In this document: one piece after another, positions 3,001-63,827 of the stretch
Layout: the number at the start of each line of letters is the position of its first letter
Position numbering within the stretch: position 1 is the first letter of the stretch
Assembly: GCF_000190755.2 (NCBI RefSeq)
Contig: NZ_JH109152.1
Span: 1,781,774-1,845,773, forward strand
Origin: Methylobacter tundripaludum SV96
Lineage (GTDB): Bacteria > Pseudomonadota > Gammaproteobacteria > Methylococcales > Methylomonadaceae
Direction: 5' to 3'
DNA length: 64,000 nt
Notes under the pieces: model-generated
Databases searched by the model: none
What the model was told of the DNA's origin: nothing
The model's input: only the letters and a program-made list of their open reading frames with translations
Made by a program: the position numbers and the translations under genes

Positions 3001-4437
3001 GTTTTGCTCTTCCAGCACTTGGTGCAAGGCGCGCAATTCCGCAGTACGCTCTTCTACGCGCTGTTCCAATGAATCGAACGAATGGTGCAGCTCGCCGATC
3101 ATGACATCGAACGCCCAGGCCAAATCGCCGATTTCGCCGGGCGCCTGGATAGCCAGCGGGCGCAAATTTTCAGCCGTCAACCGGTAATCGGACTGCCTGT
3201 CTCGCTCCAATCGGCTCACCAGTCCGATCGCCTTCACCGCATTCGTCAGTGCGATAATCGGATCGATAAAACGTCCGACCCAAAATATGCCGATACCGAT
3301 GCTAAGCGCCAATATCAGACTGGTAACCGTCAAAATAGCAGCCACCGTTTGCCGGATGTTTTGCAAGGTGCTGTCCTGCGAAGCCACCAAAGCCAGTACA
3401 AAACCCGGCTGCTGCTCGAATTGCCAAGGCAATGCCGCAGCATAAAACGAACCTTGTCCGGTGGATACGGTCTTCGCTTTAATCCCGGCTGAAGCCTTTG
3501 CAAGGTCCGGCAACAATTCCTGCAAGCTTAAATTTAACGGCCCCATCTGCCGGCTGTGTTGGCCGTCCGGCGAGAACAGCAGCGGCCACATGCCGGTTTT
3601 CCGTTCAACTGCCTGCAAAAAGTCCTGATCGACCCGTTTTTGGAAAACCACCACCGCGAACGGCGAGGGCGGCCGGTTTGTGGCGAATAGGGAAGGATCG
3701 CTTGCCGAACCGGCAATACCGGGATCGATCACCGAGAGCTCCGGCGGCTGCCCTTCACCTTGCTGCAGCGACTGTTCGATAACGCCTTCAACCGGCACCG
3801 CCACTTCGATTAACATGCTGTCCGCCGAAGGGTAAGTAAAGGCGACCTGCGGCCTATCGACCGACGCTAACGAGTCGACAACAGCGGGCGGCACCCCTTC
3901 TTCCCAAGCCGGCCAACTGCGGAGCGGCAGATTACCGTTGCCGTCTGCGGCCGCCTTAACCCACACCCGCGCGCCATTGCTCCGCTGCACGAACATCCCC
4001 ACTTCGGATACCGAAACCTGGTGGCTCAGCTTACCGTCGATATAAACCGCAATCGCCGAAAAACCGCCGGTACGCAACACCAGATGCAACCGATTCAGCG
4101 AAACCGACTTGCTGAAAGCCAGGGTTCTTGCCGCTTCTTTAACCTCCTTGTTCTTGTCCAAGGCATCGGCCAGTTTATATTCCAGTGCCGTGAGTACGGA
4201 TAACTGATTCAAGGCCACCGTTTCGCCGATCGCAGATAGCGCCACCGTGCGCATATGCACCGTTGTATCCTGCAATTCATCCTGCCAAGTCAGAAGATCG
4301 CGCTTGAGCGTGGCAAAAGCGGCATCCTGATTTTGCCGGTTGGTGAAATAAGAGGCCAGCAATGCATCCAGCACGGTCACCGCGACCAGTACGCCGATGA
4401 AGACTAATACTATTTTGCGCTTTAAACCCAGCTTCAT
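1..4437 (-). CDS. Giant membrane sensor kinase, dCache-like/HAMP/multi-PAS (partial, 3' end beyond window)
   Basis: The reading frame is open from an ATG at 4437 to base 1, 1479 codons with no stop, so the C-terminus lies outside the window. A first membrane helix (about residues 7-29) is followed by a periplasmic stretch of about 330 residues (probably a Cache-type sensor), a second helix near 363-389, HAMP and coiled coil. At least eight PAS/PAC units follow: about 516-640, 641-760, 765-885, 886-1000, 1010-1130, two nearly identical units from about 1140 to 1380, and the start of an eighth (WLKDTDSRFLVVNQ). Paired units repeat the phrase EAQRIAHVGSW, showing internal duplication. The end visible here closely matches the sixth PAS of the hybrid kinase at 32670-37949, where HisKA and HATPase follow, so I infer the same ending. 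It lies downstream, in transcription order, of two solute-binding proteins and a TonB receptor. The kinase output itself is not visible. Confidence 0.85.
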   Translation of the reverse strand, partial: MKLGLKRKIVLVFIGVLVAVTVLDALLASYFTNRQNQDAAFATLKRDLLTWQDELQDTTVHMRTVALSAIGETVALNQLSVLTALEYKLADALDKNKEVKEAARTLAFSKSVSLNRLHLVLRTGGFSAIAVYIDGKLSHQVSVSEVGMFVQRSNGARVWVKAAADGNGNLPLRSWPAWEEGVPPAVVDSLASVDRPQVAFTYPSADSMLIEVAVPVEGVIEQSLQQGEGQPPELSVIDPGIAGSASDPSLFATNRPPSPFAVVVFQKRVDQDFLQAVERKTGMWPLLFSPDGQHSRQMGPLNLSLQELLPDLAKASAGIKAKTVSTGQGSFYAAALPWQFEQQPGFVLALVASQDSTLQNIRQTVAAILTVTSLILALSIGIGIFWVGRFIDPIIALTNAVKAIGLVSRLERDRQSDYRLTAENLRPLAIQAPGEIGDLAWAFDVMIGELHHSFDSLEQRVEERTAELRALHQVLEEQNLQLEEQSFELGASNSSLLEEIGERKLIEDLLRLREQEFRSLAENSPDNIARYDRDGRIKYMNSQLHAALGLDEATARAAIGKKSTELYPDGDFDAYEQTIKSVIESGQVSELEVVLPDTGDGIRYHWVRMVAEREPFGEVIGVLALGRDITETRALQQRQTQYFAMAPGLFSTIEHRADGCYAMPFVSDGVRELFGLEPEEVMRDIGTLVARAHPDDIEMTFRKTEESERDLTPFHVEYRIIHPSNGLRWIECNSMPQRLPDGGTRWMGFYHDVTERKAIENALQDSEQMLQEAQRIAHVGSWDVDMVNDKLVWSDEIFRIWEIDKTKFKADFVAFLETVHPEDRDRVSQAYNEAVINRSLYEVEHRLLFPDGRVKHVLERGEPQYDAQGKPVRFIGTSLDITERKAIEKQLALLNYALDHVKDTVLLTGEDAHFYYVNKEACTTLGYSYDEMLGLGVPNIDPVYQQDHWPDHWRDLKANGSLTFESRHRTKDGRIFPVEINANYFEFDGQGYNLALARDISERKQMEDALRKNRQILTEAQRIAHVGSWEMDHVDNVLSWSDEIFRIFEVDPEQFGATYEAFLNAVHPYDRAAVERAYTESLKSREPYEIEHRLLMADGRVKYVLERCETAYADDGKPLNSLGTVQDITERKRMEAELISQTDFQQTILNAVADAGMQVMMIEEGRIIHVGNRKLAYEFGFTDEDIDTHPALADIIHPDDRDRIIDYHVRRMAGEAVSASYELGLVTRNGERREYETSVAIVPGTDPVRVITVGKDISERKRMETELLSQADFQKTIINAVCDVGMQLIVIENGRMIHFGNQLLARKFGFTDEDIDGYPSFIDFVHPDDRARVIGYHVSRMKGEAAPNNYELGLVAGNGERREYETSVAVVPDTDPVRLIAIFRDITERKRMEEALANREQELCALNASLELRVLERTEELRQQTRYLRTMIDTLPMFAWLKDTDSRFLVVNQALAAACSHNVDELVGKSDLDVWPREH

Positions 4438-10488: not shown

Positions 10489-10896
10489 TGATTGATTGTT
10501 GTCCCATTTTTTATTTTTTACCTCTCGTTCTCACCCGCTACGCTCGTCGTTATACACATCTCGACGTAGGCCGGAATAAGGCCACCCAAGCGTAGCGCGA
10601 GGTGGCGTTTCCGGCTTGTTCCGCAGTTTCGCCGGAAACACCCACCCTTGCTTACGCCAGGCGGGCTTATTCCGGCCTACGTCCTGTTTTTGTACATTGA
10701 TTAATTGTTGTCCCATTTTTTATTTTTTACCTCTCGTTCCCATCCGCTACGCTCGTCGTTATACACATCTCGACGTAGGCCGGAATAAGGCCACCCAAGC
10801 GTAGCGCGAGGTGGCGTTTCCGGCTTGTTCCGCAGTTTCGCCGGAAACACCCGCCCTTGCTTACGCCGGGCGGGCTTATTCCGGCCTACGTCCTGC
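10477..10896. repeat. 209-bp tandem duplication with REP elements, including the TonB-receptor start codon
   Basis: Bases from 10477 and from 10686 match almost perfectly for about 209 bp. Each copy holds the rightmost receptor codons (top strand GTTTTTGTACATTGATT), the leader, and an inverted REP composed of TAGGCCGGAATAAGGCCACC and its partner GGGCTTATTCCGGCCTA. The second copy therefore carries an orphan ATG (10697-10695) that opens a six-codon frame. The same REP family occurs near 30475-30535 and 63828-63945. Confidence 0.9.
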
Positions 10897-10925: not shown

Positions 10926-11999
10926 CTATCGTCCGCCGCCATAGGCCACAATCTCATAAGCAATCCGGCCCAGCGGCAGCTCCCTATCCACGGAACCTAG
11001 CTTTGCCGCCTCTTTCGGCATGCCGTACACCACACAGCTGTCTTCATCCTGCCCCACGGTGCGCGCGCCCATGTCGTGCATTTCCTTCAGGCCTTTGGCA
11101 CCGTCATCGCCCATCCCGGTCATGATGATGCCCAGTGCATTCTTGCCTGCGCATTTGGCGACAGACCGAAACAACACATCGACCGACGGACGATGGCGAC
11201 TGACCGGCGGCCCGTCCACGATCTCGACACGGTAGTGCGCGCCGCTGCGCTTGAGTAACATGTGCCGCCCGCCTTGCGCAATCAGTGCGAGTCCCGGCAA
11301 CACCCGGTCGCCATTAACGGCTTCGCGCACTTCAATTTGGCACAAGTTGTTCAAACGATCGGCGAAAGCCCCGGTAAACTTTTCCGGCATATGCTGCACG
11401 ATAACGATGCCGGGGCAGACGCGCGGCAAGGCGGTCAGCACCACTTCCAGCGCCTGCGTGCCGCCGGTGGAGGTGCCGATGGCGACAACCCGGTCGGTGG
11501 TTTCGGCCATCGCATGGCTACCGGCAGGGAGGATCGCATCGGCGGTTAATTTGGCCTGCACCGGCACGGCAACGGCTGATACGCCCAGTCGACGCAGGTT
11601 GGCGCGGGCGGCGGCTTTGACGGCGTTAACCAGGCTTTCCGAGTCGTCCTGCAAAAATTGCTTGAGCCCTACCTTGGGCTTGGTGACGATGCTTACCGCG
11701 CCCGCCGCCAGCGCCTGCATGGTGGTTTCCGCGCCTTTCTCGGTCAGCGTGGAACAGATGACCACCGGCGTGGGCCGTTCGGCCATCAGCTTTTTCAAAA
11801 AGGTGATGCCGTCCATGCGCGGCATTTCCACGTCCAACACGATCACATCCGGCCATTGCGCCGCCATCTTGGCCATGGCGAACACCGGGTCGGAAGCGGC
11901 CCCGATCACTTCAATACCCGGATCTTGCGACAGGTTTGCGGTCAACACCTGGCGCACCACGGCGGAATCATCCACGATCAGCACCTTGATCCTGGTCAT
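10926..11999 (-). CDS. cheB: Chemotaxis response regulator protein-glutamate methylesterase CheB
   Basis: Removes methyl groups from MCP glutamates, and deamidates glutamines, when phosphorylated by CheA. The receiver domain (about 1-120) has the acidic pair D10-D11, phosphoacceptor D56 in VIVLDVEMP, and a conserved KP near 108. A linker leads to the methylesterase domain with catalytic Ser in [10 protein letters not shown], His in IVQHMP and Asp in TGMGDDGA. The length of 357 residues is normal. It is the last gene of the chemotaxis run. Its ATG overlaps the end of cheD by four bases, so the two are probably translationally coupled. Confidence 0.97.
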
Positions 12000-12538
12000 C
12001 CTAACCTCCTGTTTAGCGGTTCAAGCCCGGCTATGGACACCACATTAGTGTGCTTAACCCAAACCTCGCCGCTCCACACCTCAAAAATCACGTTGCGATG
12101 TCCGATGTCGCCCAAGTGCTCGGCCACGCAGGTAAAACCGTGTTGTTTCGCCAGTCGCCGCGCCGCTTGCACATTCCTGCTGCCGACTTGGGACATCACA
12201 TTCATATTTTTATTCGTTTCGGGAAACATATTGCCGCCGCCAAATAACTTAACCTGATATTCCTTATGGGAAGCGCCGACCGCATCCATTTTCTTCATCA
12301 ACAAGGCAATCGCCTCATCGGCATAACGCCCGTCCGGCGCAGGCCAGTCGCCTTCCCTGCGTTCGCCGCCACGTTCCGGCAGCATGTAGTGACACATCCC
12401 CCCGACCAGAAGTTGAGGATGCCAAAAGGTCATTGACACACAAGATCCCAGTACGGTGCGGATACGAGTATCCCGGTCGGCAAAATAATGATCGCCGGGC
12501 TGGAGAAATATCTCTACAGGATGCAAAGGCCTTATCAT
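11996..12538 (-). CDS. cheD: Chemoreceptor glutamine deamidase CheD
   Basis: Deamidates glutamines on chemoreceptors and can also serve as an adaptation factor. The protein of 180 residues shows the family's catalytic Cys in [10 protein letters not shown], the His in [10 protein letters not shown], and the KLFGGGNMF segment. It lies one base after cheR and overlaps cheB by four bases, which places it in the adaptation sub-operon cheR-cheD-cheB. No CheC partner is visible in the window. Confidence 0.96.
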
Positions 12539-12539
12539 T

Positions 12540-13376
12540 TCAGGGTTTCCGGTAAACCGCCGGTTGCACCAGGCGTACGTCTTCGCTTATGCCGTTCAGC
12601 GTCTCGGAATGGCCGACCAGGAAATGTCCGCCGGGGCGCAGCAGCGACAGCAGGCGTGAGACTACCTGGCGTTTGGTATCCAGGTCGAAATAGATCATGA
12701 CGTTGCGCAGGAATATCACATCGAATTCGCCCAGTTTCGGCGGCGCTTCGGTGAGGTTATAGTGCATGAACTGCACCCGTTCGCGCAGCTTGCGCTCGAT
12801 CAGCAACGTTCCTTCCTGGGTGCCGGTGCCTTTAAGGCAGTAGTTTGACAAGTAATGCCGGGGGATTTCCGGCATCCGCCCGATAGGATAAAGGCCGGTG
12901 CGCGCCTTTTCCAACACCCGCGTGCTGAGGTCGGAGGCAACGATTTCCCACGGCGCTGTGCCTAACACCTCATCCAGCAGCATCGCAATGCTGTAGGGTT
13001 CCTCGCCGCTGGAGCAGGCGGCGCTCCAAATGCGCAGGGGTTTGCCGGGTTTCCGCGCCGACAAAACGCTTTGGCGCAGGAACTCGAAATGCTTGGGTTC
13101 CCGGAAGAAGTGCGTTTCGTTGGTGGTCAGCAAATCCACCGCCATTTGCAATTCCGTTTTGCCGTTGGCTGCGGTAATCATCTGGAAATACTCGCCGTAG
13201 CTTCCCAAGCCATGATGTTTAAGGCGTTTCGCCAAGCGACTGGTCACCAGCGGCTTCTTGGCGGGCGACATGCTGATGCCGGCGATGCGGTAGATCAGGT
13301 CGCGGAACTGTGCGAATTCCTTTTCGTGCAACACCACGGCGAGAAGATTGGGTTTGTTACTTGCGTATCCAGTCAT
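12540..13376 (-). CDS. cheR: Chemotaxis protein methyltransferase CheR
   Basis: SAM-dependent methyltransferase that methylates MCP glutamates. The N-terminal helical domain (about 10-75) is followed by the Rossmann domain with TTNETHFFREP, the SAM motif IWSAACSSGEEPYSIAM, and VIFLRNVMIYFD. I chose the ATG at 13376 because AAGGAG lies just upstream at the right spacing, and the resulting 278 residues match the family. The frame stays open to 13637 but only through intergenic repeats. Its product would act on the MCPs encoded upstream, whose tails end EFVRF. Confidence 0.95.
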   Translation of the reverse strand: MTGYASNKPNLLAVVLHEKEFAQFRDLIYRIAGISMSPAKKPLVTSRLAKRLKHHGLGSYGEYFQMITAANGKTELQMAVDLLTTNETHFFREPKHFEFLRQSVLSARKPGKPLRIWSAACSSGEEPYSIAMLLDEVLGTAPWEIVASDLSTRVLEKARTGLYPIGRMPEIPRHYLSNYCLKGTGTQEGTLLIERKLRERVQFMHYNLTEAPPKLGEFDVIFLRNVMIYFDLDTKRQVVSRLLSLLRPGGHFLVGHSETLNGISEDVRLVQPAVYRKP

Positions 13377-13683
13377 TTTGTTCACTCCTTTTATCGTTCC
13401 CGCGCTGCGGCGCTCATCAAGTGCAAGCTTATGTTCATCGTTATGTATTGAAGACGACTTATTGCAACGGGAGTGCAAGCTTCGCCTAAAGCGCCTACTT
13501 TGGGTGCCTGCACTCCCGCTGTCGGCGACTTCCTTAAAAATTCTTCGCTCTGGTTCCCAGGCTCCAGCTTCGCGAGACGGGAAGCTGGAGCTTCCCACAC
13601 CGAATTCCCAAGCTGGAGCTTGGGAACTAGCACTCACTAATTAATGGCACGTAGGAACAAGGCGAAATCACCGTTGCGTTGCT
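13377..13683. repeat. Palindromic repeats between the ODP-like gene and cheR
   Basis: Apart from the cheR ribosome site (13380-13392), the gap holds a GGGAGTGCAAGCTTCGCC / TGCACTCCC pair (about 13469-13520) and a composite element with GGGAAGCTGGAGCTTCCC (13578-13596) and AATTCCCAAGCTGGAGCTTGGGAA (13602-13626). No gene is supported. Confidence 0.75.
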
Positions 13684-14424
13684 TCATATCAACCCGGAAC
13701 CCACTTGCAACTCCGAAAACCAATTGATGAAACGCTCGACATCCGCGCCCTGATAAACCGCGCCGTGCTGCGGGCAGAGCATGTCGATTTCCATGGCGGC
13801 GGCGCGCTCGCACCACAGGCGCTTGGCTTCCGGCGAGCCCATAAAGCGGCGATGAAAGCCCTCCGCATACTGAATGTGTCGATCAAAATCCTTAACGAAT
13901 AAATCATTCATGTCGTCCGGCAGCATCGCCGCGCCAATATCGCCCGAGAACAATAGCCGCGCGGCTTCATCATATAGATGAAAATTTCCGGAAGAATGCA
14001 GGTAATGCGCAGGCACGGCTTGCAACTTCAACTTGCCGACCGCAATCGTCGAGCCCTCGTCAGGAATCCCTATAAAGGTTTCGTCAGTGCCGCCAAAATG
14101 CGGGACAAAGGTTGTCCACAAACGACTGAGATGACATTTGAGTTCCGGATTAAAATCCAGCCACAGCGACAGCGATGAGATAATGTCCGGGTCCTGATGG
14201 GACGCAAACAGCACGCCGATGTCCGCCGGATCGAACGCTTCACAAATAGCTGCAAACACCATTGAAAAGATTTCCGAACCGCCCGGATCGGTCAACAGTG
14301 CGGTATTGCCGTCGGTAATCAGGTATTCGTTGGTGTCGATCAAATAATTAGGCCGCTCCGGGTCCCGCGCTACGGCAATCCACTGGTGTTGCCCTGATTG
14401 ATAAATAATCGTCGCTTTTTTCAT
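13684..14424 (-). CDS. Di-iron metallo-beta-lactamase-fold protein, ODP-like candidate chemotaxis oxygen sensor
   Basis: A stand-alone flavodiiron-type metallo-beta-lactamase domain of 246 residues with no flavodoxin domain. The predicted iron ligands of that family are present: H76, D78 and D80 in SHQDPD, H140 or H143 in PAHYLHSSGN, D162 in FSGDIG, and H220 in PQHG. The HxDxD pattern, rather than HxExDH, is the form I recall for oxygen-binding di-iron proteins (ODP). Established knowledge: an ODP in Treponema denticola senses oxygen for chemotaxis through CheA. Here the gene sits between a short MCP-tip protein (two bases apart) and cheR in a chemotaxis operon, which supports the same role. 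It could instead be an NO or oxygen reductase. Confidence 0.85.
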   Translation of the reverse strand: MKKATIIYQSGQHQWIAVARDPERPNYLIDTNEYLITDGNTALLTDPGGSEIFSMVFAAICEAFDPADIGVLFASHQDPDIISSLSLWLDFNPELKCHLSRLWTTFVPHFGGTDETFIGIPDEGSTIAVGKLKLQAVPAHYLHSSGNFHLYDEAARLLFSGDIGAAMLPDDMNDLFVKDFDRHIQYAEGFHRRFMGSPEAKRLWCERAAAMEIDMLCPQHGAVYQGADVERFINWFSELQVGSGLI

Positions 14425-14426
14425 AA

Positions 14427-15005
14427 TCAGGTCTCTGTCAGTCGTGATTCAAGTTTCCTTACGCGCTCGGCGATATTGCCGACAACGTCCTCCACACCCT
14501 GCGCAATCTGGCGTAACACCGGCGTCATGGCGCCGCCGTGAGCCGCCTCAATACCGGCCGAACGGGCGATCACCAAGCCGGTTGCGCATTGCTTTGCGGT
14601 GCGCCTCATCGTAATCTGCAACTCGCGCAGCATGCCCGCGATAAGTCGCTCCATTTCATCCACATCGGCTTGGCTGCGTGCATAGGCCGGGGCGATACGG
14701 GCCTGCGCCAACTCGCCATAAGCTCCGGTCCGGGCGAACAGAACCACGCTGCGCGAGCGGTGACGCTTGCTTGCGGTGACCACCACCTGCCGGTAAATCA
14801 GCTTCGCTAGCTCTTGCATGGCGGCCGCCATCTTCTCGCTGAACATCCTCAGTTCGCGCGCGACCACGCTGAAGCCCACGGCATTGATACCCGCTTGCCT
14901 CGCGACCAGCATTCCATTGGTCGCAGTCAGGCTGATGTTTTCCGCCGCGTAAACAATGCTCTTGATTTCCTCATTGATTGCCGCAATAGCTTTTAATTCG
15001 TTCAT
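14427..15005 (-). CDS. Short cytosolic MCP-hairpin protein (copy 1)
   Basis: A 192-residue, entirely soluble protein. Residues about 8-65 align with the signalling hairpin of chemoreceptors: IKSIVYAAENISLTATNG parallels the usual [15 protein letters not shown], then ARQAGINAVGFSVVARELR parallels [22 protein letters not shown]. There is no membrane helix, HAMP or ligand domain. The C-terminal half is helical (two RRTAKQCATGLVIAR/QGVEDVVGNIAERVRKLE-type stretches) and probably returns to form an antiparallel coiled coil. It is followed after two bases by the ODP-like gene, so the pair may form a split receptor with the sensor on one chain and the CheA/CheW-binding tip on another (inference). 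The ATG at 15005 fits the paralogue. Confidence 0.75.
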   Translation of the reverse strand: MNELKAIAAINEEIKSIVYAAENISLTATNGMLVARQAGINAVGFSVVARELRMFSEKMAAAMQELAKLIYRQVVVTASKRHRSRSVVLFARTGAYGELAQARIAPAYARSQADVDEMERLIAGMLRELQITMRRTAKQCATGLVIARSAGIEAAHGGAMTPVLRQIAQGVEDVVGNIAERVRKLESRLTET

Positions 15006-15087
15006 ATGTCCACTTAACGATTTAATTTAAAAATATCACTGTAAAAACACCGGTTTAATGCCCTCAGGTAATTTGTAATAGCCCCGT

Positions 15088-15285
15088 TCATTCCCACATA
15101 ACATCAGCAATGTCTGCAAAACGATACGCCCCTCCTGCGTCAACATCGAACGCCTCACAGATTGCGGTAATATCTGCAAAAACTTCCTAGCCATCCAGAG
15201 GGTCAGTCAACAACGCCGCAGTACCGTCGATCATCCGGTATTCATCGGCGTTAACCGGATTAATAAATAATCGTTGTTTTTCCAT
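15088..15285 (-). pseudogene. Decayed second copy of the ODP-like di-iron gene
   Basis: Reading from an ATG at 15285, the translation begins MEKQRLFINPVNADEYRMID, then GTAALLTDPLDG, stop (15187-15189), then EVFADITAICEAFD, then a second stop near 15088. This matches the start of the intact gene at 14424 (TNEYLITDGNTALLTDPGG, FAAICEAFD). It lacks about 20 residues near the N-terminus, carries a nonsense codon, and is truncated before the metal ligands. The sequence at 15030-15090 instead matches the leader of the MCP-tip genes (compare 15845-15900). This is the remnant of a tandem duplication of the tip plus ODP pair. Confidence 0.85.
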
Positions 15286-15848
15286 AACCCCGCCTCTGCC
15301 AGTCGCGATTCAAGCTTCCTGACACTCAGGGCAATATTCCCGACGCGCTCTTCCACCTCTTGCGTAATCCGGCGCAATTCCAGTGTCATCGTGCCGCCGG
15401 GAGATGTCTCCATGTCGACCGATTGCGCAATCAGCAAGCCGGTTGCGCATTGCTTTGCGGTGCGCATCACCCTGATCTGCAACTCGCACACTTGACTCAC
15501 AATAAGTTGCTCGATTTCATCTCTATCAGCCTGGGCGTCAACACATGCCGGAGCGAAAAAATCCTTATTCCGCTCCGAGCCTGCGCTTACTTCTACCTGC
15601 CAGTCAATCAACCCGGATAGGCTTTGCATGGCCGTCGCCATATTCTCGCTAAACGTTCGCAGTTCGCGCGCGACCACGCTGAAGCCCACGGCATTGGTGC
15701 CCGCTTGCCTCGCGACCAGCATTGCATTGGTCGCAGTCAGGCTGATGTTTTCCGCCGCGTAAACAATGCTCTTGATTTCCTCATTGATTGCCGCGATAGC
15801 TTTTAATTCGTTCATGGGCGCTTTATGTTTAAGTAAGTTGAACGTCAC
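15231..15848 (-). CDS. Short cytosolic MCP-hairpin protein (copy 2)
   Basis: Paralogue of the 192-residue tip protein, 205 residues. The first 65 residues are nearly identical (MNELKAIAAINEEIKSIVYA), while the centre is diverged. Its natural end (KLESRL) is overrun. The stop codon found in copy 1 is missing, so the frame reads on for about 20 residues into the decayed ODP copy. The ORF can be extended upstream to 15848, but homology with copy 1 begins at the ATG at 15815, which is the likelier start. It presumably still reaches CheA/CheW through the hairpin, but it has lost its own ODP partner. Confidence 0.72.
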   Translation of the reverse strand: MTFNLLKHKAPMNELKAIAAINEEIKSIVYAAENISLTATNAMLVARQAGTNAVGFSVVARELRTFSENMATAMQSLSGLIDWQVEVSAGSERNKDFFAPACVDAQADRDEIEQLIVSQVCELQIRVMRTAKQCATGLLIAQSVDMETSPGGTMTLELRRITQEVEERVGNIALSVRKLESRLAEAGLWKNNDYLLIRLTPMNTG

Positions 15849-15925
15849 TGTAAAAAAACCTGTGCAATGCCGTCAGGCAATGGGTAATGGCCGTATTCCC
15901 CAGCAGGAATACAGAAGCGAAAAAC

Positions 15926-16756
15926 TCAGTCCCCCAACAACATCGTCATCCCTGTAAACAAACTCAAGTTCTGCGCGGTAGAGCCAACGCCCAGCGCAAA
16001 GCCGCCATCCAGCACGATTCGCGTGTTTAACGCATAACTCAGCGCGGCCAGAAACTGCGCGGTACCGCGCGTGCCCTGGCGATCCGCACCCGACATCTCG
16101 GCCGACACCGTCCAGCGTTCGGTCACCGGCTGCGCTATTGCGGCTGCCCACGTCACTTGATAACGGCTTTCGCCTTCGCCATACGCTCCCAGCCGAGTCA
16201 CGCCCAAGTTAATATCCACTGCCGCCGATCCTAAACGCGTACTGACGATGCCGTTGAGTGTTTCATCGGTTCTGCCGCTACCCAAGGCATACTTGGCAGA
16301 AGGCAGTTTGACGCTTGCTTCAAACCCCAACTCAAGATTTTCGAACACGTCATGATGGTGTTTGACGGTCAGCAGGGTGTCGCCAAAGCCATTCGCTTCT
16401 ATGCCGTCCAACGAAATGGCGCGATCGTAAAGGTCGGCTCCGGCCATGACGCCCCAATCGGCATTAAAAGCGTACTTGGCAAGAAACGGCACGCCGTCGC
16501 GTTGCTGTTCGGAGCCGCCGCTGGTATGCAACCCGCCCAGTTCGATTTCCGGCATACCCGGCACCGGCAAGGCCGCCGGGTTGGAAACCGTAGGCCGGTA
16601 AGGCGTGGCTTCCGGTTCTTCGGCTCCGGCAACACCTGCCGCCATCAACAGTCCGGCAGCGATTAAAAATCGATTTGCGCTAGTTGCCGGGAATTCGGCT
16701 TCCCGTCTCGCGAAGCCGAAGCTTCGTTTTCCGGGTTCCCTCGCTGGAGCTCTCAT
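15926..16756 (-). CDS. Secreted outer-membrane transporter-like protein (MetA-pathway type)
   Basis: A signal peptide (NRFLIAAGLLMAAGVAGA) precedes a mature part rich in alternating beta strands ending in MTMLLGD. This is typical of the small 'transporter' / phenol-degradation MetA-like outer-membrane family. The start is abnormal. In the partial copy at 22366-22681 the signal peptide begins ATGACAAATCGA, whereas here the same position reads AGCGCAAATCGA and is preceded by the end of a palindromic repeat (CTAGCGCAA). The native ATG has been lost and translation would have to begin upstream; I use the ATG at 16756, inside repeat-derived sequence. Expression is therefore uncertain. Its place among chemotaxis genes probably reflects the local duplication rather than function. 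Confidence 0.65.
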   Translation of the reverse strand: MRAPAREPGKRSFGFARREAEFPATSANRFLIAAGLLMAAGVAGAEEPEATPYRPTVSNPAALPVPGMPEIELGGLHTSGGSEQQRDGVPFLAKYAFNADWGVMAGADLYDRAISLDGIEANGFGDTLLTVKHHHDVFENLELGFEASVKLPSAKYALGSGRTDETLNGIVSTRLGSAAVDINLGVTRLGAYGEGESRYQVTWAAAIAQPVTERWTVSAEMSGADRQGTRGTAQFLAALSYALNTRIVLDGGFALGVGSTAQNLSLFTGMTMLLGD

Positions 16757-17037
16757 CTTTATATATAAGTGCCTATGGGATGCCGTCATCCGGTAAGAAT
16801 GACCGAGACGTCTCCGTTCCTGTGTAAGCCTATGTTCATCGTTACGACTGATTGCAACGGGAGTGCAAGCTTTGCTTGCGCTTGCAGGCGAAGCCTGCAC
16901 TCCAACGCTCGGCAACTTCCTTGACAATCCTTTGTGCTGATTCCCAGACTGGAGATTTAGGAACCGGAGCAAGATGTGTATAACGATGAGCGCTATAGCT
17001 TGGGAATCCGCGTAGACACAAATCAACCGTGTTGACA
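16684..17037. repeat. Palindromic repeats and duplicated 3' flank of cheW (copy 1)
   Basis: Contains a GAATTCGGCTTCCC/GGGTTCCC composite (16690-16742), a GGAGTGCAAGCTTTGCTTGCG / GCAGGCGAAGCCTGCACTCC pair (16860-16904), and a stretch from about 16925 to 17040 nearly identical to 19752-19870. That shared flank shows the cheW duplication extends beyond the gene. No additional gene is supported. Confidence 0.75.
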
Positions 17038-17595
17038 TCATCCCACCTGCACCAGCTCGGCAGACGGCGCAGAACCCGCCGTAGCCAATGCAGCCATGTC
17101 GTCCATCGACAGCACATGCTGGATGTTCAGGATGATCACGAACTTGCCGTTGATTTTGCCCATGCCGGCAATAAAGTCGGCGCGGATGTTGGTGCCGAAA
17201 GTCGGGGCCGGTTCGATCTCGTCGGCCGGAATCTCCAGCACTGCGTTGACAGCATCCACCATCACCCCGATATTCTGGGTTTCCTCTCCCATCATTACTT
17301 CGATAATGATGATGCAGTTGCGCCGACCTATCGCAGTGGGCTGCTTGCCGAAACGGGCGCTCAGGTCGATCACCGGCACCACCGCTCCCCTCAGGTTAAT
17401 GACGCCGCGGATGAAATCCGGCATCCTCGGCACTTCGGTCAGTTGGCCGTATTGGATGATCTCCTTGATGCGCAGGATGCCGATAGCATAGGTTTCACCG
17501 CTCAACATAAAGGTGAGATATTGCTGTTGTTCCTCAAGCGCCTGACTGTCGGCCGTGGCCGACAAGGTTTGTGCCGTTTGTGTGATTGCCTTCAT
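17038..17595 (-). CDS. cheW: Chemotaxis adaptor CheW (copy 1)
   Basis: Couples receptors to CheA. The 185-residue protein has a CheW fold: QQQYLTFMLSGETYAIGI, IREVIQ-like ILRIKEIIQ, the LRGAVVPVIDL strand, and a final domain around FIAGMGKINGKFVIILN. It follows the MCP at 17605-19482 by nine bases. It is almost identical to the cheW at 19871-20428, differing mainly in the first 20 residues and around residues 95-115. Two CheW copies, each paired with one MCP, are the result of a segmental duplication. Confidence 0.96.
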   Translation of the reverse strand: MKAITQTAQTLSATADSQALEEQQQYLTFMLSGETYAIGILRIKEIIQYGQLTEVPRMPDFIRGVINLRGAVVPVIDLSARFGKQPTAIGRRNCIIIIEVMMGEETQNIGVMVDAVNAVLEIPADEIEPAPTFGTNIRADFIAGMGKINGKFVIILNIQHVLSMDDMAALATAGSAPSAELVQVG

Positions 17596-17604
17596 GCCCG
17601 CCCC

Positions 17605-19482
17605 CTAGAATCTTACGAATTCGGCTTCGTTAGGCGCCTGTTTTGCGATCACTGCTTTTTTAATCGCAGGCTTGAAAGGCTTGACATTGGGCGCCTTAAA
17701 TAGCGCACCGGCACTATCGCCCACGGTAAAGAACGCCATCAGCTCCTGTAGTTGCGCCGCTTGTCCGCTCATCTCTTCCGAGGTGGCGGCCAACTCTTCC
17801 GATGAACTGGCATTCTGCTGGGTGATCTGGTTGAGCTGATCCATCGCGGTATTGATTTGGCCGACACCTGCCGACTGCTCTTCAGAGGCCGCGGCAATTT
17901 CCTGCACCAGGTCGGAGGTTTTCTTGATCGAAGGCACGATAGTATCCAGCAGCTTACCGGCACTTTCGGCCATATCGACACTGCTTTCCGCAAGCTCACC
18001 GATTTCCTGGGCGGCTATTTGGCTGCGTTCCGCCAGTTTGCGCACTTCGGCGGCGACTACCGCAAAGCCCCTGCCGTGTTCACCGGCCCGGGCGGCTTCA
18101 ATCGCCGCGTTCAAGGCCAGCAAATTGGTTTGGTAGGCGATGTCGTCGATGATGCCGATTTTTCCGGCGATGCTCTTCATCGCGCCCACGGTTTCTCTTA
18201 CCGCTTCGCCGCCTTGCACCGCTTCGCCACTGGCTTGGGTCGCCATGCCGTCGGTGACTTTGGCGTTTTCGGTGTTCTGGTTGATCGACGCCGACATCTG
18301 TTCGACCGAAGCGCTGGTTTCTTCAACCGATGCGGCCTGCTCGCTGGTTGCATGGCTCATGTTTTGGGCGGTGGCGCTGACTTCCTCGCTGGCTCCGGCG
18401 ATGTTGGAGGCGGCAGCGTTGACTTCGCCGATGACTTGCGACAGTTTGGCGATGGTGTTGTTGACGGTGTCCTTGAAGTCTTTGAGCTGGCCTTTGTAGT
18501 CGCCGTTGACGGTTTGGGTCAGGTTGCCCTGCTCCATTTCTTTCAGCACTTCAACCGCTTCGTTGACGGGGTCGATCACGCCGTCCAGGGTGTCGTTGAT
18601 GCCTTGAACCAGTTTGCGGAAGTCGCCTTGGTATTTGCTTGCATCGGCACGGGTATCAAGCGCGCCCTCGGCTGCGGCCTTGACCAGGACGTCGGTGTCG
18701 GCCAACAAGCCTTTCAGGGTGTCGCTCATGTTTTTCATTGCGGCAAATACGCTGGCGGTGTCGCCGGGTTTCAGGTGGATTTGGCTAGAAAGGTCGCCGA
18801 CTGCGATTTTATTGGCAATATCTGCGGCCTCATCCGGTTCGCCGCCCAACTGGTTCATCAAGTTGCGGGTAATAAAAAAGCCCATTACCGCAGTCATCAA
18901 GAATGCAGTTACGGCAATCGCCGCCGATTGGATCAAGGCCTTGCGTTTGATCTCAACGGCATCGTCGACGCTCTTCCGGGCAAGATCAATGTTGTATTTC
19001 ACCTGTGCATCCAGTGCATCTTGCAGCACTCTTCCGGTAGCGGTGAGTCCATTCAAGGCATCCTTCGCTTGGTCTTTCTTATTGGCGCGAGATAGCGCCA
19101 ACACCGGCTCGATGCCCGGCTCGTAAGCGGCCAAGGCTGCCTTGTTTGCATTGAATAAACGCCGGTCCTCGGCATCTGTAATGGTCGGCTCATACTCTTT
19201 CAACGCTGCCGCTAAGGCAGTGCGCGATGCATCAAGCTCTTTTTCATACGAAGCAATTTTAGTAGCGTCCGAATTGAGTACGTGCCGATACAACCGAACT
19301 CGCACTTGCCCGAAGTTTTTTACTGCCTTGTCTACAGCAATCAAAGCCGGAACGCTGTTTTCGCTGGCGAAATTAGCTGCCGTGAATACTCGTTCTATCT
19401 GGGAATAACTAAAAACAGTTAGCCCGGCTAAACCGAATAAAGCCGTACAAACCAACAATGCCATCTTTTTTGTTACAGTCAT
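17605..19482 (-). CDS. Methyl-accepting chemotaxis protein with periplasmic four-helix sensor (MCP 1)
   Basis: A transmembrane chemoreceptor of 625 residues. Membrane helix 1 lies at about 7-26, a helical periplasmic sensor (4HB-type) at about 30-185, and membrane helix 2 at about 187-209. HAMP comes next, with a second HAMP-like unit, and then the signalling domain. The hairpin tip contains [18 protein letters not shown] and [17 protein letters not shown]. The tail ends in EFVRF, which has the aromatic-x-x-Phe spacing of the CheR/CheB docking pentapeptide NWETF. From the phrase [11 protein letters not shown] onward it is almost identical to the MCP at 20438-22318, while the sensor domain is unrelated in detail. 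The ligand is unknown. Confidence 0.95.
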
Positions 19483-19870
19483 TTAATTTAATTTACCTCG
19501 TTTCTACGCAACGCATAAAAACCCAAAAAAAGTCGCTCGGCGCGCCCTACAATTACTCCGCCTACACCAAATCGGCAACCGGAACCGCCGATGAAGAACG
19601 CATCGAAACTGAGCAGGACGGGAGTTGCACCCCGTCCCCATCGTTTTTTCTCATTCCCACGGAGCCCGTGGGAATGCGAGCGACCCCGTCCGGCTCCAAG
19701 AACCGGCGTAAGCTAGACCTTACGCTAGTTCCCAAGCTCCTGCTTGGGAACTAGCGCAAACCCTTTGCGCTGATTCCCAGACTGGAGATTTAGGAACCGG
19801 CTCAAGATGAGTATAACGATAAGCGCTGAAGCTTGGGAACCCGCGTAGACACAAATCAACCGTGTTGACA
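19483..19870. repeat. Repeat-filled gap between cheW copy 2 and MCP 1
   Basis: No gene is supported. It holds the MCP 1 leader, a GACGGGAGTTGCACCCCGTCC palindrome (19618-19638), TTCCCACGGAGCCCGTGGGAATG (19653-19675), GTTCCCAAGCTCCTGCTTGGGAAC (19729-19752), and then the 3' flank that is duplicated downstream of cheW copy 1 (about 16925-17040). Confidence 0.75.
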
Positions 19871-20428
19871 TCACCCCGCCTGCACCAGCTCGGCAGACGG
19901 CGCAGAACCCGCCGTAGCCAATGCAGCCATGTCGTCCATCGACAGCACATGCTGGATGTTCAGGATGATCACGAACTTGCCGTTGATTTTGCCCATGCCG
20001 GCAATAAAGTCGGCGCGGATGTTGGTGCCGAACGTGGGCGCCGGTTCGATCTCGCTAGCCGGAATCTCCATCACCGCGTTGACCGCATCCACCATCACCC
20101 CGACACTCTGGGTTTCAGCCCCTAGCGCCACTTCGATGATGATGATGCAGTTGCGCCGCCCAATCGCCGTGGGCTGTTTGCCGAAACGCGCGCTCAGGTC
20201 GATCACCGGCACCACCGCCCCTCTCAGGTTGATAACCCCGCGGATAAAATCCGGCATCCGCGGCACTTCGGTCAGTTGGCCGTATTGGATGATCTCCTTG
20301 ATGCGCAGGATGCTGATCGCGTAAGTTTCACCGCTCAACATAAAGGTCAGGTATTGCTGCTGTTCCTCAAGTCCCTGACTTCCGTCCATAGCCGGGAGCG
20401 CCTGTGCTGCTTGTACGATTGCATTCAT
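19871..20428 (-). CDS. cheW: Chemotaxis adaptor CheW (copy 2)
   Basis: Second CheW adaptor, 185 residues, with the same motifs as the copy at 17038-17595 (FMLSGETYAISILRIKEIIQ, LRGAVVPVIDLSARF). A clear AGGAG ribosome site precedes the ATG at 20428, and it follows its MCP by nine bases. The very low divergence over most of the gene, set against a diverged first 20 residues, suggests either recent duplication or gene conversion. Confidence 0.96.
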   Translation of the reverse strand: MNAIVQAAQALPAMDGSQGLEEQQQYLTFMLSGETYAISILRIKEIIQYGQLTEVPRMPDFIRGVINLRGAVVPVIDLSARFGKQPTAIGRRNCIIIIEVALGAETQSVGVMVDAVNAVMEIPASEIEPAPTFGTNIRADFIAGMGKINGKFVIILNIQHVLSMDDMAALATAGSAPSAELVQAG

Positions 20429-20437
20429 GTCCGTCTC

Positions 20438-22318
20438 CTAAAACCTGACGAATTCGACTTCGTTAGTCGCCCGTTTTGCCGCCGCCGTTTTTTTAACCGC
20501 CGGTTTGGAAGACTTGTCAGTGAAAGACGCCGATGTAGCGCCGCCGCCACTCACGGTAAAGAACGCGATCAGTTCCTGTAGTTGCGCGGCCTGTCCGCTC
20601 ATCTCTTCCGAGGTGGCGGCCAACTCTTCCGACGAGCTGGCGTTCTGCTGGGTGATTTGGTTGAGCTGATCCATCGCCGTATTGATTTGACCTACGCCTG
20701 CCGACTGTTCTTCGGAGGCCGCAGCGATTTCCTGCACCAAGTCGGAGGTTTTCTTGATTGATGGCACGATGGTATCCAGCAGCTTACCGGCGCTTTCGGC
20801 CATATCGACGCTGCTTTCGGCCAGTTCGCCGATTTCCTGCGCGGCGATCTGGCTGCGTTCGGCTAATTTCCGCACTTCGGCGGCGACCACCGCAAAGCCC
20901 CGGCCGTGCTCGCCCGCCCGTGCCGCTTCAATCGCCGCGTTCAAGGCCAGCAAATTGGTTTGGTAGGCGATGTCGTCGATGATACCGATTTTTCCGGCGA
21001 TGCTCTTCATCGCGCTGACCGTCTCTTTAACCGCTTCGCCGCCTTGCACCGCTTCACCGCTGGCTTGGGCCGCCATGCCGTCGGTGACTTTGGCGTTTTC
21101 GGTGTTCTGGTTGATCGACGCCGACATCTGTTCGACGGAAGCGCTGGTTTCTTCAACCGATGCGGCCTGCTCGCTGGTTGCCTGGCTCATGCTCTGGGCG
21201 GTGGCGCTGACTTCCTCGCTGGCCCCGGCGATGTTGGAGGCGGCAGCGTTGACTTCGCCGATGACTTGCGACAGTTTGGCGATGGTGTTGTTGACGGTGT
21301 CCTTGAAGTCCTTGAGCTGGCCTTTGTAGTCGCCGTTGACGGTTTGGGTCAGGTTGCCTTGTTCCATCTCCTTGAGGACGTCGACCGCTTCGTTGACAGG
21401 ATTAACCACGCCGTCCAGCGTGTCGTTGATGCCTTGCACCAGCTTACGGAAGTCGCCTTGGTATTTGTTGGCATCGGCACGGGCGTCGAGCTCGCCTTCT
21501 GCCGCCGCCCTGACCAGGACGTCTGTGTCTGTCAGCAAGCCTTTCAGGGTGTCGCTCATGTTTTTCATCGCAGCGAGCAATTGGCCGGTTTCATCCGTAC
21601 TGGCAACCTGAATATTCGATGTCAGGTCGCCCTCGGCGATTTTTTGGGCGACATCCCTCGCCATGTTCAGCGGTAGCGTGATGGAGCGGGTCACCCAAAA
21701 AGCGATACCTATCCCCAAAACGATGGCTATTCCGCCCAGCGTGAACATCAAGTTGCGCGACTCGATATAAGCCTCCGCTGCATCCTTGGCATCATCTTTG
21801 TTATTCTCCGCCTGACGCTCCAGGTTTTCATCAAGAGCCTCCTGCCATTTAGCCACCAGTGGCGCAGCCGTGCCCATCAGCAAATGCACAGCTTCTGCAT
21901 CTTTGTTCTCAAGCGCCAATTCGAGGACCTTGTTGTTCACATCACGGGCTGCTGCCGCCCCTTCCTCGATAGCTTTGCGAATCGCCTTGCCTTTTTCACT
22001 GGCCGGGGTCTTTTCCAGATCGTCCCAAGCCTTGTTATAGGCGGCTCGCGCCTTATCCATCTTCGCCTTTTCCACCTGCATGGCAGCCTGATCATCCAAC
22101 AAAGTGATGGTACGTAAAATACGTGAAACAATGTGGACATTTTCGGACATGGTATTACTTAACGCGGTTTTATAGGCGTTTTCGTTAACGATTTGATCCA
22201 TCTTGTCATTCTGAGACGACATGGCACTGATGCCGCTGTAAATCACGGTAATCATTAACAGCAACACCACGCCAAAACCTAATCCGAGACGCATCCCGAC
22301 TTTCATATTTTTAAACAT
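20438..22318 (-). CDS. Methyl-accepting chemotaxis protein with four-helix periplasmic sensor (MCP 2)
   Basis: Transmembrane chemoreceptor of 626 residues: membrane helix 1 at about 10-32, a 4HB_MCP-type periplasmic domain with a long [20 protein letters not shown] helix, membrane helix 2 near 192-212 ([18 protein letters not shown]), HAMP ([16 protein letters not shown]), a second HAMP-like unit, and a signalling hairpin identical to MCP 1. The tail is NEVEFVRF, again with docking-pentapeptide spacing. A good ribosome site (AGAGGAA) precedes the ATG at 22318. Sensor and cytoplasmic halves have different histories, because only the latter matches MCP 1. Confidence 0.95.
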
Positions 22319-22365: not shown

Positions 22366-22681
22366 CAGCAGGGTGTCGCCAAAGCCGTTCGCTTCGATGC
22401 CGTCCTCCAACGAAATGGCGCGGGCATAAAAGATCGGCGCCGACCATTACGCCCCAATCGGAATTAAACGCGTACTTGGCAAGAAACGGCACGGGATCGC
22501 GCTGTTGCTCGGAGCCGCCGGCACTATGCATCCCGCCCAATTCGATTTCCGGCATACCCGGTACCGGCAAAACCGCCGGATTGGAAACGGTTGACCGGTA
22601 AGGCGTGACTTGCGGTTCTTCCGCTCCGGCAACACCTGTCGCCATGAACAGCCCGGCAACGGCTAAAAATCGATTTGTCAT
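22366..22681 (-). pseudogene. Truncated, frameshifted copy of the outer-membrane transporter gene
   Basis: Begins ATG with MTNRFLAVAGLFMATGVAG, matching the signal peptide of the gene at 15926-16756. It continues in register through GVMVGADL and then shifts frame: the bases encoding DRAISLDGIEANGFGDTLL are still present but out of frame. Homology stops abruptly near 22368, just before the MCP 2 leader. About two thirds of the gene is missing. It preserves the ancestral ATG that the full-length copy has lost. Confidence 0.85.
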
Positions 22682-22974: not shown

Positions 22975-25197
22975 CTAATGCATTACCACGCCGGAGCGTG
23001 TGAACGGTACGACCTCCCCCGCCTCCCTTTCATGTTCTATCTGACCCATCAACCCCGGCACATCAACAATCAGCGCGACCTCTCCACTACCCAAAATAGT
23101 AAATCCGCCGATGCTCTTTTCGCTGCTGAACAACTTGCCCAGCGGTTTGATCACGGTTTGGAATTCGCCCATCAGTTTGTCCACGACCAAGCCGGCTTTG
23201 TGCTCGCCGTAGCGCACTACGACGACGTTCTCGCGCTGCACCATGTCGCCGTCTATGACAAAGTGGTCACGCAAACGTCGATACGGCAGCACTTCGCCGC
23301 GCAGGTTCAGGTATTGGCCATCCCCTTCGTCGCTGGCCCAGGCGTTTAATTCGACGCATTCGACCACCATATCCAGCGGGATGACGTAAGATGCGTTGCC
23401 GACGCCGACCATGAAGCCGTCGATGATGGCCAGGGTCAGCGGCAGGCGGATACGGATGGTGCTGCCCTGGCCTTCGATGCTGTCCAGGTCGACGCTGCCG
23501 CGCAGGGCCTGGATGTTGCGTTTCACCACGTCCATGCCGACGCCCCGGCCGGACAGGTTGCTGACCGCATCGGCGGTGGAGAAGCCGGCTTCGAAGATCA
23601 GGTTGTAGATTTCTTTGTCGCTCAGGTTTGCGCCCTCGGCGACCAAGCCGCGTTCGATGGCTTTGTTGAGGATTTTTTCTTTGTTCAGGCCGCCGCCGTC
23701 GTCGCTGACTTCGATCACGATGCTGCCCGCGTCGTGGTAGGCGTTGAGTCTGAGGGTGCCTTTGGCGGACTTGCCTCTGGCAAGACGCAGTTCGGCGGCT
23801 TCGATGCCGTGGTCCATGGAGTTGCGCACCAGGTGGGTCAGCGGGTCGCCGATTTTTTCGACGACGGTTTTGTCGAGTTCGGTATCCCCGCCGCTGATCA
23901 CCAGGTCGATGTCTTTGCCCAGTTCTTTGCTGACGTCGCGCACCACGCGGGTGAAGCGGTTGAAGGTGCCGCCGATCTGCACCATGCGCAACGCCAGTGC
24001 CGAATCGCGCACGTCTTCGACCAGCCTGGACAGCGTGGCGGTAGATTCCATCAGCTCGGCCATGCCCGCGCGCCGGGCGATCAGGTTGGTGCCGGCTCCG
24101 GCGATGATCAGTTCGCCGACCAAGTTGATCAGTTCGTCGAGTTTTTCGGCATCGACGCGGATCAGGCTGGCTTCGCTTTTTTTGTTGTCTTTGACCTGTT
24201 GTTGTTTTGCCAGTGCGGCTTCGACCACCGGCGAGCTGACCATCTGCTGTTCGACCAGCACTTCGCCGATCGGCCGTTGCGGGGCGTCGCCGTGCTGGGA
24301 TTGAAGGCGCAGGATGTTGTCCAGCTCTTCCGGAGTTAAGGTACCGCACTTGACCAGGATTTCGCCGAGGCGCATTTCCTGTTCCGGCAATTCCTGAATC
24401 AGGCGCTGGTATTCGGAGGCTTTGCTGCGCGGCGGCAGGATGCGGATGAAGCAGTCGCTGCGGACGAAGTTGAAGAGGCTGTCGATGGCGAGTTTGTCGG
24501 CATCGCTGCTGAAGCTGATTTCAAAGCCCAGGTAGCAGGATTCCGGGTCCATCTGTGCGGCGGCCGGGATGGCGTCGATGACGGTCACCAGTTCTTCGAT
24601 GCTGCCCAGCGAGGCCAGGCAGCGTACGAACGAAAACGGGTCCATGCCGTTCCTGAACACCTCGGGGCCAAAGCGTAACGATAGGTGCCACAGGTCGGTG
24701 CCGACCACGGCGTCGCTGTGTTCGCGCTCGACGTTGGCGGTCTGGATGACGGGCATTTCGCCGGAGTTGTCCGAGCTTCCCGAGTTGCCCGGTTGCTCCG
24801 CCGGGGTCTCGCCCAGATAGGCTTCCAGCCGGGCTATCAAGGTTTTACCGTGGTTGTCGGTTGCTTCGGCCGGGTGGCTGCCTTCGGCAACATGGCCGAT
24901 CAATTCTTTCAAATGGTCGTGCGCTTCGATGAATAAGGCCGCCAATACCGAAGTCATTGCTACCTCGCCGCTACGCACCCGGTCCAGCACGCTTTCCGCG
25001 GCATGGGTGAATTCGACGACGGGGTCGAGGCCGAACATGCCCGCCGAGCCTTTGATAGTATGCGCGGCCCGAAAGATGGCGTTGATGATTTCCGGGTCTT
25101 GTTCGGCCTGTTCTACGATGAGCAGGGCTTCTTCCATTTGTTCGAGCAGTTCTTTGCATTCGACAACAAAGGTTTGTAGATATTCGTCTGGGATCAT
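22975..25197 (-). CDS. cheA: Chemotaxis histidine kinase CheA with MshEN-like insert
   Basis: Central kinase of the array, 740 residues. The P1/Hpt domain (1-105) has phospho-accepting H46 in FRAAHTIKGSAGMF. A P2-like domain (about 165-255) follows. Residues 276-299 and 309-332 are two 24-residue repeats of the form (R)LGExLVxxG..Lxxx..LxxQ, the pattern of the c-di-GMP-binding MshEN domain; the first copy is a good match, while the second has Q in place of the second Gly. Then come P3 dimerisation (345-410), the P4 ATPase with HLVRNSMDHGIE, SDDGGGL and GRGVGMDVVK, and the P5 CheW-like domain. The next gene upstream is the STAS protein, 14 bases away. Kinase function is certain; nucleotide regulation is inference. 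Confidence 0.96.
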   Translation of the reverse strand: MIPDEYLQTFVVECKELLEQMEEALLIVEQAEQDPEIINAIFRAAHTIKGSAGMFGLDPVVEFTHAAESVLDRVRSGEVAMTSVLAALFIEAHDHLKELIGHVAEGSHPAEATDNHGKTLIARLEAYLGETPAEQPGNSGSSDNSGEMPVIQTANVEREHSDAVVGTDLWHLSLRFGPEVFRNGMDPFSFVRCLASLGSIEELVTVIDAIPAAAQMDPESCYLGFEISFSSDADKLAIDSLFNFVRSDCFIRILPPRSKASEYQRLIQELPEQEMRLGEILVKCGTLTPEELDNILRLQSQHGDAPQRPIGEVLVEQQMVSSPVVEAALAKQQQVKDNKKSEASLIRVDAEKLDELINLVGELIIAGAGTNLIARRAGMAELMESTATLSRLVEDVRDSALALRMVQIGGTFNRFTRVVRDVSKELGKDIDLVISGGDTELDKTVVEKIGDPLTHLVRNSMDHGIEAAELRLARGKSAKGTLRLNAYHDAGSIVIEVSDDGGGLNKEKILNKAIERGLVAEGANLSDKEIYNLIFEAGFSTADAVSNLSGRGVGMDVVKRNIQALRGSVDLDSIEGQGSTIRIRLPLTLAIIDGFMVGVGNASYVIPLDMVVECVELNAWASDEGDGQYLNLRGEVLPYRRLRDHFVIDGDMVQRENVVVVRYGEHKAGLVVDKLMGEFQTVIKPLGKLFSSEKSIGGFTILGSGEVALIVDVPGLMGQIEHEREAGEVVPFTRSGVVMH

Positions 25198-63756: not shown

Positions 63757-63827
63757 GTTAAGAGTTTTTACTACGAAGAACTCGAAGGAAAAGCCAAAGA
63801 TACCGCGCTGAAAAATATTCAGTCATG

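Follow-up and report, generated by a model that had tools for sequence, protein, structure and literature searches.

The oxygen-binding di-iron protein (ODP) of Treponema denticola (TDE2498) is genetically coupled to TDE2496, an MCP homologue that has neither transmembrane nor sensing modules and can modulate CheA, according to the available part of PMC7666581. Operons that combine ODPs with MCP genes, in either of two orders, are described in the accessible text of PMC7319448, and ODP has been presented as an auxiliary sensory subunit of soluble receptors (PMC6978683, in the portion available); PMC9665402, in the part available, only lists ODP as one of several oxygen sensors. Two MCP signalling tips in one chain are described, in the available sections of PMC7534058, for DosM of the cytoplasmic F9 arrays of V. 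cholerae, an extended rod that bears one signalling domain at either end. Here we report, from Methylobacter tundripaludum SV96, an ODP gene directly preceded by a short gene for a sensor-less MCP-like partner that appears, from family profiles, to carry two tips, and we propose that the two products would form one soluble receptor. An earlier sequence-only reading had held that a bare MCP partner co-encoded with ODP was undescribed; that claim falls in outline, because an ODP beside a sensor-less MCP homologue is already in print (PMC7666581), as are ODP-MCP operons (PMC7319448, both in the parts available).

The window, that is, the whole stretch of DNA that was analysed, comprises 64,000 nucleotides (NZ_JH109152.1, positions 1,781,774 to 1,845,773). 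The features on which the following relies are listed below; the names cheA, cheW, cheR, cheD and cheB are presumed from the sequences.

13684..14424, minus strand: ODP, oxygen-binding di-iron protein, 246 aa from ATG, identified by PF19583, PDB 6qrq/6qnm and ligand residues
14427..15005, minus strand: two-tip MCP-like partner, 192 aa from ATG, no sensor domain matched in Pfam
14781..14993, minus strand: first hairpin of the partner, residues about 5-75, with N30 as the Asn381 equivalent (hhalign E=1.5e-19, residue counts)
14442..14663, minus strand: putative second, diverged hairpin of the partner, residues about 115-188, with E153 as the Glu385 equivalent (hhalign E=1.4e-8, column shuffles)
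15231..15815, minus strand: second copy of the two-tip gene, in tandem; 194 aa when counted from ATG (the ORF list gives a GTG start at 15848)
15145..15285, minus strand: decayed ODP remnant of the second copy, matching the intact ODP by blastn in two pieces (1.2e-6 and 1.4e-5)
10926..11999, minus strand: cheB, presumed name
11996..12538, minus strand: cheD, presumed name
12540..13637, minus strand: cheR, presumed name, listed start probably too far upstream
17038..17595, minus strand: cheW, presumed name
17605..19482, minus strand: MCP, 625 aa, canonical MCP tip motif found
22975..25197, minus strand: cheA, 740 aa, presumed name

The partner gene and the ODP gene are separated by two bases (joined as TGA TT ATG on the minus strand), and the pair lies inside a che cluster that is transcribed in the order cheA, MCP, cheW, MCP, cheW, second tip copy, tip, ODP, cheR, cheD, cheB; other ORFs are interspersed. 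Part of an MCP together with cheW is duplicated (16926-18744 versus 19759-21574, 89% identity) and a flanking fragment is repeated (16370-16677 versus 22366-22677, 86% identity), pointing to a cluster shaped by segmental duplication. A short repeat between cluster genes (13421-13563 versus 16822-16950, 72% identical) extends over the 5' end given for the cheR ORF, and cheR probably starts further in. Downstream of cheB, a repeat of about 120-190 bases occurs in tandem (10501-10686 and 10710-10895, 98%) and in dispersed form (63827-63945, 85-87%).

The stretch 14385-15083 is 74% identical to 15247-15892, and the second copy looks like a duplication of the module that has lost its ODP. The second tip copy, with a pN/pS of 0.60 against the second tip of locus L064, looks less constrained. 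A similar tandem second tip is found in L064 itself (3431-4057).

The identity of the ODP was established by a match to the full length of PF19583 (residues 29-221 on profile positions 1-194 of 194; 242 bits against a cut-off of 27.2, E=6.1e-72) and by matches to the solved oxygen-binding di-iron proteins 6qrq (E=2.5e-65) and 6qnm (E=2.9e-60); its closest relatives, 89-93% identical, come from five Methylobacter MAGs. PF19583 and Lactamase_B were the only Pfam matches in the 246 residues, and no flavodoxin domain was found among them. All six ODP ligand positions are occupied (H76, D78, D80, H143, D162 and H220, in the pattern H-x-D-x-D, H, D, H), and these residues are identical in 132/132 other aligned ODPs; the position that follows D80 holds Ile in the window's protein and, in nearly all other ODPs, Ile or Val. 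Muok et al. 2019 are said to have described these six positions as iron ligands, together with the oxygen chemistry of ODP. By family knowledge the window's ODP would thus bind iron and oxygen, and oxygen rather than NO would be the ligand expected from its membership in the ODP family. A metallo-beta-lactamase-type di-iron domain is shared with flavodiiron proteins (PDB 1e5d, 1ycf and 4dik, E=1.5e-6 to 2e-4), from which the ODP differs in having no flavodoxin domain; in the H-x-E/D motif it carries Asp where 4dik carries Glu.

ODPs also occur in other settings. Another ODP of the window's genome (G000:C2:92674-93255, locus L048) has no tip or MCP neighbour detectable by profile, and ODPs like it are found in L039-L046 and L049-L051; at some of these loci the upstream ORFs resemble, by eye, a membrane protein. 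The ODP domain is further embedded in long open frames, at L110 (358-2193) and, with 555-719 aa, at L195, L196, L197, L201 and L202. The first 379 residues of the 612-aa ORF of L110 had no Pfam family match, and such long-frame ODPs possibly represent other ODP output modules.

Taken alone, the partner protein of the window matched the Pfam MCPsignal family only over residues 8-72, with 22.1 bits against a cut-off of 34.6 (E=1.5e-4), and gave no Pfam match in its second half; no transmembrane segment was seen by eye in its 192 residues. Its tip motif occupies residues 22-52 of the 192, and a second tip-like segment follows about 120 residues further on. We turned to profiles, using an alignment of 65 partner sequences (39 representatives below 60% identity) and, on the MCP side, 34 non-redundant receptors, with each hhalign E-value referring to one single comparison. 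Conservation in the 65 partners is concentrated in two segments, around N30 and around E153 in the numbering of the window. The first half of the family matched the MCP tip with E=1.5e-19, so that the MCP signalling hairpin tip, though below the curated Pfam cut-off, is present by family profile and the hairpin assignment made in the sequence-only reading is secure.

The second half of the family also matched the MCP tip (E=1.4e-8), in register with the 11-residue motif, and fitted the post-tip arm (1.6e-3) and the pre-tip arm (0.02) far less well. Against an earlier MCP set its score was 31.4, a value reached by 0/100 column shuffles (maximum 15.3) and well above the reversed control (11.0). 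The two halves also resemble each other, with E=1.6e-6 and a score of 33.4 where shuffles reached 12.9 at most, but reversal still gave 18.0 (E=0.0033). In one of the cross-group comparisons, N_C with C_A (the first half of one group with the second half of the other), the true score of 19.1 was below the reversed control of 19.5. The resemblance between the halves is therefore due in part to helix composition, a weakness of which the match between the second half and the MCP tip is free. The second-half signal is uneven, reaching 1.4e-8 in the IEASQAGE group and only 8.8e-5 in the window's group, and with a first profile of 19 sequences, before the family was enlarged, it was weak (E=0.017).

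Pfam gave a sparser picture. Among 10 partners scanned, MCPsignal was found in the second half of two at most. L059 had two stretches, the best at profile positions 32-92 and in the first half, and L166 had its best stretch in the second half (residues 162-221 on profile positions 33-92, the tip region, below the cut-off with E=0.051); L113 had no match at all, and in the other scanned partners the best stretch begins in the first half. Adding the window's two partners to these ten, 10/12 were under the MCPsignal cut-off or unmatched, and no dedicated NCBIfam model appeared among the 21 families listed for 20 members.

The distance from tip to tip is 121 residues in 14/17 representatives of one group and 117-121 in 19/22 of the other, insertions per column amount to 0.03 and 0.06 sequences in the hairpins and 0.50 in the linker, and the four arms have a hydrophobic period of 3.35-3.60 residues. 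Spacing, insertions and periodicity would fit two hairpins in tandem whose arms are about 30-40 residues long, and the one long symmetric antiparallel hairpin with a central tip that characterises MCPs was not found in the partner. Judging from these alignments, the partner appears to be a tandem protein in which a first MCP tip is followed by a second, diverged one. The earlier description of a bare MCP tip is right in that the protein has an MCP hairpin and no sensor, and needs correcting in that the family carries a second, diverged tip rather than a single one.

The two tips differ in the contact residues that they retain. Receptor residues aligned with five Tsr positions were chosen as trimer contacts in PMC8466855, as far as its available text goes. 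Across the 65 partners, the first tip has the equivalent of N381 in 65/65, of R388 in 51/65 and of G395 in 60/65, and that of E385 in 0/65; the second tip has E385 in 62/65, N381 in 25/65 and R388 in 7/65. We take the five Tsr positions, by our own alignment, to be F373, N381, E385, R388 and V398. The Asn of the first tip and the Glu of the second occur together in 62/65 partners, and Glu385 and Arg388 occur together in the second tip in 7/65; the split is not absolute, since 4/65 second tips combine N381, E385 and R388. A first tip without the Glu385 equivalent may not join ordinary trimers of dimers, and the two hairpins would, to different degrees, divide between them the two roles shared in an MCP dimer by its identical subunits.

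To place the pair among its relatives, we collected 132 distinct ODPs with their flanks (loci L031-L203) using our own ODP profile at 1e-30; 4 duplicates were dropped, from the search of relatives the 30 places given as loci were taken, and loci L001-L030 and more divergent ODP fusions lie outside this set. The profile scores fell into two non-overlapping groups, 67 ODPs at 294 or more and 65 at 256 or less, a split that is partly built in for loci L061-L080, from which the 19 ODPs of the profile were drawn. A two-tip gene lies directly upstream on the same strand in 65/67 high-scoring ODPs, and the two misses, L065 and L187, have 138 and 0 bases upstream at contig ends; it lies upstream of 0/65 low-scoring ODPs, 3/65 of which have less than 650 bases upstream. 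When L061-L080 are left aside, the tip gene stands beside 46/47 high-scoring ODPs (one of the 46, L081, entered via the tip profile and not via ODP), the miss being L187 at its contig start. Lack of conservation of the pair, which the sequence-only reading had named as grounds for giving up its proposal, is thus not what we found: within the subfamily, the pair is broken only where contigs end.

A search of the window genome and 60 relatives gave the same picture from the side of the partner. Among the matches listed there were 46 short tip genes (matched in one row across 140 residues or more, in a frame no longer than 280 aa), and in 43 of them ODP is the next gene. Of the three exceptions, one lies at a contig end (G017:C120) and the others are tandem second tips (G010:C120:16282 and G007:C10:3431). 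The window's own second tip, which was matched in two rows and is outside the 46, is a further case without an intact ODP. Three paralogous pairs per genome were present in G020, G001 and G006, and in G020 (C123, C208 and C221) each tip stands beside its own ODP. Tip-linked ODPs occur in the window's class and in the spirochaete phylum; at E<=1e-40, ODP was detected in 51/274 genomes of the former and in 23/149 genomes of the phylum of L080's genome.

Both genes of the pair are under purifying selection: in comparisons with five Methylobacter relatives, dN/dS lies at about 0.07-0.27 for the tip gene and at 0.04-0.07 for ODP, a sixth comparison being saturated, and the second half of the tip gene is less constrained than the first in each comparison. 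Tip-linked ODPs have a signature of their own that includes W15, D30, E51 and L87. Each of these is present in 26/26 members that share less than 70% identity, against no more than a quarter of 38 other ODPs, and they are candidate contact positions. Tip and ODP distances are strongly correlated (Mantel r=0.86, 65 pairs, permutation maximum 0.12); on its own this is no evidence of contact, because shared ancestry gives the same correlation.

Across 33 loci longer than 8 kb (all such loci, 20 of them, L204-L223, chosen by hand), che genes were found in 20/33 and the order CheW-[tip-ODP]-CheR in 7; with the window's own Che proteins as queries, none were found in the other 13/33. At two loci, L070 and L215, ODP is followed in the same direction by an additional short MCP (380 and 424 aa), besides the upstream two-tip gene. 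The A1 profile, run on 398 Pseudomonadota genomes, was unspecific because ordinary MCPs match its first half, and among the matches listed only the window's own genome and G410 exceeded 100 bits.

How the partner acts can be read in several ways. It could be an ordinary sensor-less cytoplasmic MCP shortened at its N terminus, with one tip and a long descending arm, that forms a homodimer like Tm14 or TDE2496; positions 15-186 of the A1 profile match the tip and following arm of the MCP chain 2ch7_B (E=4.6e-8), and in the window's group the second half by itself gives a weak match (E=8.8e-5). We nevertheless hold this to be unlikely: the preference of the second half for the MCP tip over the post-tip arm (1.4e-8 versus 1.6e-3) led us to reject a plain descending arm, from which neither the near-fixed spacing nor the Glu at E153 (62/65) would be expected, and the roughly 30-40 residues before the tip make a symmetric hairpin impossible. 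A role outside chemotaxis, for instance as a helical scaffold or maturation factor for an ODP engaged in iron or oxygen protection, would agree with the 13/33 long loci in which the window's Che proteins found no che gene, but seems improbable given the che genes in 20/33 and an MCP tip whose residues are kept in the first hairpin over large distances (N381 65/65, G395 60/65).

The two-tip protein might instead act as an adaptor or inhibitor, removing transmembrane MCPs or CheW from signalling by binding them, with ODP controlling its availability. Trimer contacts do look altered, in that the first tip is without Glu385 and Glu385 and Arg388 come together in a single hairpin, the second, in 7/65 only; the MCP homologue linked to ODP in T. 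denticola, on the other hand, is reported to modulate CheA (PMC7666581, in its available part), and we regard the adaptor or inhibitor as conceivable though not likely. It overlaps in architecture with the explanation that we prefer, so the odds of the two are not exclusive.

Collectively, we favour, at a probability of about 0.68, one soluble two-protein receptor in which ODP would sense iron or oxygen and the two-tip partner would couple it to CheA/CheW; what the analysis shows is the pairing, the cluster, the ligand residues, the two profile-level tips and the purifying selection, and the fold, the complex and the signalling are predicted. As for the predicted fold, two hairpins in one chain would most simply form a parallel four-helix bundle and in this way mimic a dimeric MCP tip, with a first hairpin close to a normal MCP tip and a diverged second one bearing another subset of contact residues. 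The best solved matches of the partner family, 3ur1_C and 4jpb_B (MCP chains of 85 and 90 residues, E about 1e-9), cover the first half only, and we take both to be fragments of Tm14 in complexes with CheA P4-P5 and CheW. If so, a short tip on its own would suffice for docking, on which ground we propose that the partner would dock by its first hairpin into the CheA/CheW baseplate of its own che cluster, where it would replace one receptor dimer. In the proposed signalling step, the iron or oxygen state of ODP would change the partner's hold on CheA/CheW, by analogy with T. denticola ODP and TDE2496. The split cytosolic receptor of the sequence-only reading is compatible with the conserved pair and the hairpin profile, with the amendment that its partner is a two-tip protein and not a single tip.

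A more specific version of the two-protein receptor, which we put forward tentatively and hold to be somewhat less probable than its negation, is that the partner is a single-chain asymmetric pseudo-dimer, that is, a fused and subfunctionalised receptor dimer. One hairpin would mainly provide the Asn381/Arg388 side and the other the Glu385 side, the chain would sit in a fixed orientation at one dimer place of the array, and ODP would serve as its detachable oxygen or iron sensor.

The closest systems each share part of this arrangement. Tm14 of Thermotoga maritima, presumably the soluble receptor behind PDB 3g6b, 3g67, 3ur1 and 4jpb, is likewise a sensor-less MCP chain of similar length (213 aa), and its fragments are the partner's best sequence matches among solved structures; its matched segment, however, begins at residue 72 and has the tip near the middle, and no second tip was reported in the matches. 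What the T. denticola pair has in common is that its ODP, too, stands next to an MCP homologue devoid of transmembrane and sensor modules. TDE2496 was compared by its description, and the single-hairpin downstream arrangement is taken from 8/65 low-scoring ODPs, all from the spirochaete-phylum search, in which an MCP of 279-348 aa lies downstream; L179, the one of these eight MCPs that was scanned, gave a single strong MCPsignal match. In the window, by contrast, the partner has about 200 aa, lies upstream, carries two putative tips and belongs with a different ODP subfamily.

The ODP-MCP operons of PMC7319448 probably include the window's gene order, and the accessible parts of that paper are silent on the architecture of the MCP-like partner. 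DosM would share two signalling tips in one chain and the cytoplasmic array (PMC7534058, in the sections available), but is a long rod; in the 192-aa, ODP-linked partner, two putative tips per chain, on short arms, are indicated by profile at family level. Two further candidates for prior art were set aside: the available text of PMC7184735, on F7-cluster accessory proteins, mentions neither ODP nor lactamase, and PMC10653840, in the part available, concerns CheWS, a SAM sensor of another family. Searches on pseudo-dimer or two-signalling-domain chemoreceptors and on ODP with soluble receptors did not turn up the two-tip architecture in the accessible portions of the literature, although Muok et al. 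2019 may describe it; as far as these searches show, the two-tip ODP partner would be an undescribed variant.

Such partners are easily missed, given that 10/12 fall below the MCPsignal cut-off or go unmatched and that those listed have no dedicated NCBIfam model. Normal MCP dimers are symmetric in sequence, and the subunit roles of trimer contact and of CheA/CheW contact therefore cannot be separated by simple mutation; two joined and diverged tips would make these roles directly testable. If the partner is a pseudo-dimer, it would amount to a minimal plug-in receptor and offer a natural means of distinguishing the two dimer subunits. For Proteobacteria, including methane oxidisers, the pair would provide a compact oxygen or iron input to chemotaxis that needs no membrane receptor.
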